From assembly GCA_022827885.1 (NCBI GenBank), contig JAJEIP010000007.1, positions 62,001 through 126,000 of the forward strand: a DNA stretch of 64,000 nucleotides, given 5' to 3'. The stretch's first letter is position 1. Each line of letters begins with the position of its first letter. The translations under genes and the position numbers were made by a program. This DNA comes from Candidatus Poribacteria bacterium (GTDB lineage: Bacteria > Poribacteria > WGA-4E > WGA-3G). Below the pieces are notes generated by a model that worked only from the letters and a program-made list of their open reading frames with translations, had not been told where the DNA came from and did no database searches. Below are positions 9,059 to 38,317 of the stretch, piece after piece.

Positions 9059-9586
9059 ATGGAAGATCAACTCAAAATGGCTCGGCACAGTTTGGAAAAT
9101 CTACCGGCACTCCAGTGTCCTGACGGGTATCATATCCGTACCTATCAGCAAGGAGACGAGATACATTGGGCAAAAATAATGGACAGCGCCTTCGTAGACC
9201 AAGGGAGAACCGCTCAAGATACCCACACTGACGTTATTAGCCAACCCAATTTCGATCCAGATGGCTTCTGTTTCGTCATTCACAAAGATATTCCTATCGG
9301 CACGGCATGTGGGTGGAAGGAATCCCTTCATGGCAAACCGATTGGCTACATTGATATGCTCGCCGTGCTTCCCGAACACACCGGACATAAACTCGGGAAA
9401 TGGTTAACAGTGTTTCTCCTACACTATTTCAAAACGCAGCACGTAACCTCCATCATGTTAGATACAGACGATTTCCGACTCCCCGCAATCAAAAATTATC
9501 TCAACCTGGGGTTTGTTCCTGTTTATGTAGGTGAGAACCACCTGTCCCGTTGGCGCAGTATCTTCGAAAAACTGGACATTTTTTAA
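9059..9586 (+). CDS. GNAT family N-acetyltransferase, tandem paralogue
   Basis: Shares PDGYHIRTYQQGDEIHWAKI and LAVLPEHTGHKLGKW with the preceding ORF. Confidence 0.85.
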   Translation: MEDQLKMARHSLENLPALQCPDGYHIRTYQQGDEIHWAKIMDSAFVDQGRTAQDTHTDVISQPNFDPDGFCFVIHKDIPIGTACGWKESLHGKPIGYIDMLAVLPEHTGHKLGKWLTVFLLHYFKTQHVTSIMLDTDDFRLPAIKNYLNLGFVPVYVGENHLSRWRSIFEKLDIF

Positions 9587-9603
9587 TTTTTCCTTTTCTA
9601 AAA

Positions 9604-11451
9604 ATGAGAGTACCCCTCGCGGTGAGAAACTATTTCCGTTTGCCGAGTTGTTTTGTTATATCTGCGATTCTCATCAGCGGCTTCGGTTTCCGACTTATCG
9701 GGATAAATATCGGCTTACCTGATTCTCCCGACCCCCGTGAAGTGCTCATCGCCCGAGATGTGCTGAACCTCATCCACTTCACAGCACCCCCTGAAATCTA
9801 CAACTGGCCCGGGACAGCATGGTTTTACGTCATTGCTGGGATAGGCAAATTACTGTCGCTTACGGGTTTGCAGCTAACGGAAGCCCGCGTCATCCTATTG
9901 GCACGCTGCATCAACGTTCTGTTGTCCACAGCGACCCTTTGGTTCACCTATCGCCTTGGCGTTCACTGTTACAGTAAACGTATAGGTCAGATTGCCGCAG
10001 GGTTGCTCACTGTTGCGATGTTACATGCCACCAACGAATCGCGTTTCGCACTCGTTGACATCCCCGCGACCTTCTGTGTAACACTGTTTCTCTGGCTCGT
10101 GATACGTGGGCGTTCTTCTTCGACGGAAGCCCGCCATCACGATGGGACGCTCCAGCAGACTGCCGAAGTCGCACCTACATTTCAAACTGCGGTATGGCTC
10201 GGTGTCATCTTAGGGATCGGTTTCGCGGTCAAATTTACAACCGTCTTTGTAGGTTTCTCCTTGCTGGTTTTCACTTTAAGTGAAGACTTTCCCCCACGCG
10301 ATAGGTGCGGTTTCAAACCGCACCTACCAAGGAGCTCCGTAACTCCTAAAAAATTTGCAACAATTATCGGTGTTTCCGTATTAACCTTTACGCTCCTCTG
10401 CCCTTATTGGCTCATTGATCTGGTTTCGCCGGAGTGGAATCTCTTCTTTGAGGATTTCTGGTACGAAGCCACGCATTACCATCGCGGGCACTTCGGTCTG
10501 ATCGCTGCGGGGGAATCTGGGTTACTACATCGGTTTATCTATCTATGGACGCTCCTGAAATGGGGCATGGGACTGCCGCTTGCGCTCCTCGTTAGTTTGG
10601 GAATTTTGTGCGCGCTTGTGCGGCTTAAAAGAGGCGTTGGTGGGTTGCCTGTACCAGAAGTACTCTTGCTGGCTTTTGTTATTCCCTATCTATTATTTAT
10701 CGGGATACATAAGATTAAGTTCGCCCGCCATCTACTCATACTCTATCCGGCGCTTATCGTGCTGGGAGCTGCCGCGTTGGAACGCCTTCCAAGCCTTGTG
10801 GAAATGCTATTATACTCGGTCCGTCCACGCGAGGCTGTAAATTTTCTACGTTCCACTGAAGGTCCTATAGTAAAGTCCATAATTACTTTTATACGACGAT
10901 CGGTGCGGTTAGAAACCGCACCTACCAGGGGAGGGGCAGATTGGAAATGGTTTGGGACAGTCTTGGGGGGTGTTGTGGCACTTTACTCATTGGTTTATAC
11001 GCTTTCGTTTGCCGCTATTTTACTGTCGCAACCGACGAAGATTGCAGCATCCGACTGGATAGCAACACACATTCCACCAGAGGAATCTGTTGCTGTCGCG
11101 CCAGAGATCCTATTCGACTGGCTTCTCCCTGACTTAGACTTTATCGTGACAGATGAAGAGGTGAAATGGGTGCTTATTGTTGTGCCGGATCTTGAAGTGT
11201 TCCAAAAATACCAAGCGTCGCCCCACCGCTATCAAGATGCGGATTGGTACCCGCTCAGCGAGATTGAATTCGAGGAGACACTTGCGTTTTACTCGCGAAT
11301 CTTAGGGGAGGGAAGTTCATATGCGCTGTACAACATATTCCGATGCCCCCCAAAGTTCTTCGGTATTGAAATAATATCCGATAGCGGTGCCCCGTTCCCG
11401 ATGCGCGCCCTGGCACATCCAGAACTCCACGTCTATCGCCGTTTGGATTGA
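9604..11451 (+). CDS. Multi-pass membrane glycosyltransferase (GT39/ArnT-like)
   Basis: N-terminal DPREVLIARDVLNLIHFTAPPEIYNWPGTAWFYV and many TM helices; contains two palindromic repeat insertions. Confidence 0.8.
   Translation: MRVPLAVRNYFRLPSCFVISAILISGFGFRLIGINIGLPDSPDPREVLIARDVLNLIHFTAPPEIYNWPGTAWFYVIAGIGKLLSLTGLQLTEARVILLARCINVLLSTATLWFTYRLGVHCYSKRIGQIAAGLLTVAMLHATNESRFALVDIPATFCVTLFLWLVIRGRSSSTEARHHDGTLQQTAEVAPTFQTAVWLGVILGIGFAVKFTTVFVGFSLLVFTLSEDFPPRDRCGFKPHLPRSSVTPKKFATIIGVSVLTFTLLCPYWLIDLVSPEWNLFFEDFWYEATHYHRGHFGLIAAGESGLLHRFIYLWTLLKWGMGLPLALLVSLGILCALVRLKRGVGGLPVPEVLLLAFVIPYLLFIGIHKIKFARHLLILYPALIVLGAAALERLPSLVEMLLYSVRPREAVNFLRSTEGPIVKSIITFIRRSVRLETAPTRGGADWKWFGTVLGGVVALYSLVYTLSFAAILLSQPTKIAASDWIATHIPPEESVAVAPEILFDWLLPDLDFIVTDEEVKWVLIVVPDLEVFQKYQASPHRYQDADWYPLSEIEFEETLAFYSRILGEGSSYALYNIFRCPPKFFGIEIISDSGAPFPMRALAHPELHVYRRLD
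10302..10326. repeat. Perfect palindrome (GGTGCGG family) inside CDS
   Basis: TAGGTGCGGTTT-c-AAACCGCACCTA; translated in frame as RCGFKPHL. Confidence 0.9.
10866..10930. repeat. Longer TATAGTAAAGT...GGTGCGGTTAGAAACCGCACCTACC element inside CDS
   Basis: Matches intergenic copies at 11530 and 38194 at both ends; palindrome 10902-10922. Confidence 0.8.
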
Positions 11452-11529: not shown

Positions 11530-11632
11530 TATAGTAAAGTTTAGAATTAATTGGGCACTCCGCACCGGTGCAGTTGGGTGAAAGACCCTACCAGGGAAGA
11601 GAAGAGTGCGGTTAGAAACCGCACCTACCGGG
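11530..11632. repeat. Intergenic TATAGTAAAGT/GGTGCGG repeat, compound copy
   Basis: tatagtaaagtttagaattaattgggcactccgcaccggtgcagttgg...agtgcggttagaaaccgcacctacc. Confidence 0.85.
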
Positions 11633-11700: not shown

Positions 11701-11789
11701 AGACTTATGCAAAATGACCAAATTTCACCTATTTTCACAGGAATCGGTGCGGTTAGGTGAAAGACCCTACCGAGGGAATGCGTAAGTCC
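11701..11789. mobile_element. MITE-like element with GACTTATGCA...TGCGTAAGTC terminal inverted repeats
   Basis: Terminal repeats match those at 25267-25471; interior carries a GGTGCGGTT repeat. Confidence 0.5.
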
Positions 11790-38193: not shown

Positions 38194-38269
38194 TATAGTA
38201 AAGTTTAGAATTAATTGGACACTCTGCACCGGTGCGGTTGGGAAACCACACCTACCGGGAAAGGTGGGA
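38194..38269. repeat. TATAGTAAAGT/GGTGCGG repeat, intergenic copy
   Basis: tatagtaaagtttagaattaattggacactctgcaccggtgcggttgggaaaccacacctaccggg. Confidence 0.9.
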
Positions 38270-38317
38270 AGGTCCATTTATTTTTCGGATCCACTATAAT
38301 GAAGATTAATTTATTAA

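Follow-up and report, generated by a model that had tools for sequence, protein, structure and literature searches.

A dispersed GTAG-type REP family in Candidatus Poribacteria includes two in-frame copies in one membrane glycosyltransferase gene

A perfect palindrome within a membrane glycosyltransferase gene of Candidatus Poribacteria is a GTAG-type REP (repetitive extragenic palindrome), an element with a 9-bp stem, a 3-nt loop, and a GTAG tetranucleotide. We studied it in a 64,000-nucleotide stretch of one contig (the window), together with the rest of the genome and its relatives. We hold with good confidence that this palindrome belongs to a Poribacteria family of GTAG REPs that is probably moved by a REP-associated tyrosine transposase (RAYT), that insertions of the family into genes are normally purged, and that two have survived in this gene. 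The system is REP/RAYT, and the double in-frame insertion is a rare, already described type of event, seen here in a new phylum.

The palindrome, TAGGTGCGGTTTCAAACCGCACCTA, lies at exactly 10302 to 10326 of the window (site 1), where an earlier sequence-only reading had placed it. It is a perfect 25-bp palindrome with no strand assigned, and the open reading frame at 9550 to 11451 (plus strand, 633 amino acids) runs through it, reading it as DRCGFKPHLP, or DRCGFKPHLPR with the next residue. The true start of this frame is probably downstream of the listed TTG. Its product is a PMT_2/GT39-like membrane glycosyltransferase, as judged from its match to Pfam PF13231 PMT_2 (27.5 bits; cut-off, 26.1) and from its orthologues, which are present in 49 of 60 related genomes. 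As single-stranded DNA, site 1 folds into a hairpin (z = -5.2) whose 11-bp stem is perfectly paired and whose loop has 3 nt, and GTAG occurs in site 1 itself on the minus strand only.

The sequence-only reading had proposed a dispersed palindromic repeat in a lineage unrelated to Rickettsia, and both points are borne out. The host genome is a Candidatus Poribacteria MAG of a sponge symbiont, and within 3 mismatches it holds 114 strand matches on many contigs, some sites counting twice as the element is near-palindromic; a reversed-pattern control in the same genome gave 0. With up to 3 mismatches allowed, TAGGTGCGGTTTCAAACCGCACCTA had 0 matches in 100 shuffled windows. Given these counts and the empty orthologue sites described below, the probability that the palindrome is a chance one or part of the ancestral coding sequence is negligible, and the shuffles and empty sites rule that reading out.

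We compiled 93 non-redundant copies with their flanks from fetched stretches of the genome. Taken together, 89 close copies give the consensus GGTGCGGTTAGAAACCGCACCTACC (CCGGTGCGGTTAGAAACCGCACCTACCGGGtctGGG), and its reverse complement starts GGTAGGTGCGG. On that other strand it reads CCCGGTAG-GTGCGGTT-TCT-AACCGCAC-C, in which GTAG sits at the base of a perfectly paired stem; a REP unit comprises GTAG and then a hairpin with a GGTGCGGTT/AACCGCACC stem and a loop of 3 nt. The reverse complement, GGTAGGTGCGGTTTCTAACCGCACC, has the form of a GTAG REP palindrome, 20 to 40 bp long with an unpaired GTAG at one end, and the single-stranded hairpin is GTAGGTGCGGTTTCTAACCGCACC. The CTAC columns are at least 98% conserved in the 89 copies, and the family combines high copy number with dispersal, as GTAG REPs do. 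The REP is present in 44 of 60 relatives and absent from more distant families of the class. Across the genome collection, hits to the pattern come almost exclusively from Candidatus Poribacteria MAGs, the sole exception being the end of one short gammaproteobacterial contig.

The distribution of copies relative to genes does not support the suggestion that the repeat as a family tolerates protein-coding insertion. We called a copy coding when the same open frame was coding on both sides, as scored from hexamers with long open reading frames of Poribacteria as the training set. By this measure, 7 of 88 copies are intragenic, in several reading frames, compared with 66% of random positions taken in the same DNA under the same coding test; the remaining 81 are extragenic, where 34% would be expected. 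One of the seven (L214) is doubtful, as it belongs to a tandem array in a short open reading frame. Other Poribacteria give a similar count (7 of 124 copies coding), and the family is therefore depleted from genes, as REPs are. Insertions into genes would normally be purged, leaving about 92% of copies extragenic.

These counts bear on the alternative of a coding-tolerant mobile element like the Rickettsia palindromic elements, selected for an open frame and a conserved peptide. In-frame copies do occur in several genes (twice in the GT39-like gene, and in those for GlyQS, acyl-CoA synthetase, LplA, and UPF0182), and several proteins, from several species, share the peptide VGAVSNRT. However, the strong depletion from coding sequence argues against such tolerance, and a conserved peptide is at odds with stops in three of the six consensus frames and with at least four different peptides, CGFKPHLP, VRLETAPT, VGAVSNRT, and AVRDRTY being the four clear ones, which come from different frames and strands. 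We consider this alternative very unlikely, and the size of the element, its frames, and its share of coding copies led us to reject an RPE-like family.

Orthologue alignment identifies site 1 as a true in-frame insertion. The window species carries 54 extra bp (18 codons) at 10290 to 10343 on the plus strand (boundaries ±3 bp, from the orthologue gaps), within the 10 to 20 amino acids that the sequence-only reading had anticipated. A gap of exactly 54 bp is found in 7 of 8 orthologues aligned at the DNA level, and 28 of 29 lack the insert at the protein level, including the closest (G008). In an alignment of 30 orthologues, PPRDRCGFKPHLPRSSVT occurs only in the window species (G000) and, decayed, in G034, whose copy of site 1 is identical at 46 of 54 positions. 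G026 has an apparently uninterrupted target (GATTTTCCTAAAAAA versus GACTTTCC...CCTAAAAAA). We found no clean target duplication for REP insertion; TCC at site 1 is a possible one that could also be due to chance. Since site 1 is held by G000 and G034 and is absent from the nearer G008 and G017, its history requires recombination or loss. Identity between G000 and G034 rises to 0.91 to 0.94 just downstream of site 1, from mostly 0.82 to 0.87 elsewhere. This locally raised identity (around 10290 to 10600 of the window) and the shared insert point to recombination between Poribacteria species as the likely source.

The same gene holds a second REP copy, which the earlier reading omitted, at 10902 to 10926 on the plus strand (site 2). 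It has 0 mismatches to the genome consensus and is read as VRLETAPT, in a frame unlike that of site 1 (CGFKPHLP). The site 2 insert spans 66 bp (10867 to 10935, plus strand, boundaries approximate, from gaps in relatives). Among the aligned relatives only G008 shares the insert; the others have a 66-bp gap there, apart from G007, a more distant one, whose gap is 69 bp. Over 60 bp the insert is 95% identical to another copy, L209 on contig C143, the left end of which corresponds to the left part of the insert. In G008 (L148), site 2 has grown by a further unit in the region of window 10900 to 10935 and is still in frame, with CCTACCGGGGGAGGGGCAGA duplicated around a broken REP.

The gene has a third insert that keeps the frame, 45 bp or 15 amino acids long (10122 to 10166, plus strand), which is found only in the window species and G008. 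It is not a REP copy, and we rejected it as a further repeat because it had no second copy among the fetched loci. A fourth insertion place, at about residues 361 to 370, carries other in-frame insertions in G010, G026, G030, and G034 (L166, L164, L147, and L163), which are partly GGCAATCGGCAGTC- and CTTCCAACC-type simple repeats. The lengths of the site 1, site 2, and 45-bp inserts are all multiples of three. Alignment gaps and helix prediction suggest that sites 1 and 2 lie in loops; the AlphaFold check that had been proposed likewise puts both between helices, as an indication only given a weak model (pLDDT 43). Both REP copies may have survived because their inserts are multiples of 3 bp, remain open in frame, and would sit between transmembrane helices, where we infer them to be neutral.

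The genome also encodes candidate enzymes for moving the element. It has four Y1 transposase genes, three of them above the cut-off of the RAYT model NCBIfam NF047646. The RAYT scores 128.5 bits against this model (cut-off, 80), contains MPDHIH and RYCYANPVRKGL, in keeping with the HUH motif and catalytic Tyr of RAYTs, and has TnpA-REP 4er8 among its PDB relatives. On contig C137, an exact palindrome lies 34 bp upstream of the RAYT gene on the minus strand and two exact copies lie downstream on the plus strand; these inverted REPs on either side of the gene match the REPtron arrangement as published (PMC2817692). The RAYT gene on C144 has a downstream copy only. Among related RAYTs, a GTAG hairpin lies within 300 bp of 17 of 26, compared with 10% of control windows, and 12 of the 26 have hairpins on both sides. 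The RAYT-adjacent GTAG palindromes vary by clade, with GTAGGTTCGGTTTCCTAACCGAACC beside the RAYTs of G004, G016, G025, and G029 and GTAGGCGGGGCATCTTGCCCCGCC in G041. G031 has the most copies in its genus (161 strand matches) and a RAYT ringed by five of them. The palindrome count does not always track the presence of the closest RAYT; G011, for instance, has 100 strand matches and a weak best RAYT hit. On contig C68 of the window genome (L177), a different tandem palindromic repeat family adjoins a second RAYT gene, which shares 58% identity with the one on C137.

The GTAG hairpins flanking RAYTs, together with RAYT/REP biochemistry in E. coli, Stenotrophomonas, and Marinomonas (PMC8266576), lead us to infer RAYT catalysis here, by which the enzyme would mobilize the hairpin, probably copying or moving the REP as single-stranded DNA.

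Several copies are nested in larger elements. The sequence-only reading had listed further copies between genes at 11606, 11744, and 38231. The first is a true intergenic copy with 1 mismatch, downstream of the glycosyltransferase gene (11605 to 11629, plus strand), while the other two are diverged copies inside larger MITE-like inverted-repeat elements. One element lies at 11702 to 11788 (plus strand; ends GACTTATGCA and TGCGTAAGTC; diverged REP at about 11744) and the other at 38195 to 38299 (plus strand; ends TTATAGTAAAG... and ...CCACTATAA; diverged REP at about 38231 to 38256). At least three types of larger MITE-like elements hold the REP hairpin centrally (both window elements; L016, L024, L029, and L199).

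As an alternative, an ordinary DDE transposase could move the family as a MITE, with the REP hairpin a mere central passenger. This would account for several copies being nested within inverted ends, of which there are at least three types (TTATGGTA..AGACATT, CGGTAATT, and GGACTTACGCA), and for the site 2 insert carrying one such left end. However, the hairpin is constant and the flanking ends vary between copies, flanking inverted repeats score above the 99% null level in only 9 of 89 copies, and the exact palindrome adjoins a RAYT rather than a DDE transposase. The variable ends and constant hairpin disfavor a pure DDE-MITE, and we regard this origin as quite unlikely. The preferred reading, a probably RAYT-moved REP, would have its copies often embedded in larger inverted-repeat elements.

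REP-derived peptides also occur in other proteins. Several species, such as G010 (VGAVSNRTESAPTTVGAVSNRTE), have REP-derived residues in the linker between the subunits of GlyQS, the fused glycyl-tRNA synthetase; the linkers of others are unrelated. Six species carry VGAVSNRTD or a close variant in an acyl-CoA synthetase, and at least seven others lack it; G009 has three tandem VGAVSNRTD-type units. VGAVSNRT is tandemly amplified in frame in both the GlyQS linker (L263 to L281) and the acyl-CoA-synthetase loop (L282 to L295). The insertions in these two proteins have outlived speciation. The retention and tandem amplification of in-frame VGAVSNRT units between species, in the GlyQS alpha-beta linker and the acyl-CoA-synthetase loop, could mean that REP peptides have been co-opted as flexible linkers of essential enzymes and that RAYT/REP supplies raw material for protein evolution, which we think rather unlikely. 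The double insertion and the tRNA synthetase linkers retained across species offer specific examples with which to ask if proteins merely tolerate REP insertions or at times make use of them. Our analysis documents a GTAG REP/RAYT system in Poribacteria, and empty sites between close species allow REP gain to be measured inside and outside genes. We found no report of REPs in Poribacteria in the open-licence literature, and the phylum is not named among the GTAG REPs (PMC3733652).

Comparison with known systems modifies the proposed analogy to Rickettsia palindromic elements. Like the RPE-1 type (PMC10969869), the Poribacteria REP is a palindromic repeat in frame inside protein genes. The RPE-1 type, however, is about 150 bp long, has one conserved peptide, and places nearly half of its copies in open reading frames (PMC10969869), whereas the Poribacteria REP is 25 to 60 bp long, is read in several frames with no single peptide, has 8% of its copies in open reading frames, and is accompanied by a RAYT; it does not belong to that type. 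The Poribacteria REP also shares features with RAYT/TnpA-REP REPtrons (PMC2817692): an NF047646 Y1/HUH transposase is flanked by two inverted cognate REPs, and variant REPs adjoin variant RAYTs. Its stem is perfectly palindromic, like those of group 3 and unlike the bulged stem of the E. coli REP; the biochemistry of REPtrons is described in PMC8266576. The better analogy is with intragenic GTAG/CGTC REPs, RPE-4 and RPE-6 among them, for which double hits in one gene, tRNA synthetase hits, and nesting with other inverted repeats have been described (PMC3733652). GTAG REPs have reported stems of 5 to 13 and loops of 2 to 20 (Di Nocera et al. 2013, PMC3733652). The Poribacteria REP resembles these GTAG-tagged REPs (PMC3733652) in having GTAG at the foot of a hairpin with a 9-bp stem and 3-nt loop, in being dispersed and mostly intergenic with occasional copies in open reading frames, including tRNA synthetases and some genes hit twice, and in being partly flanked by unrelated inverted repeats; it differs in a stem and loop sequence of its own.
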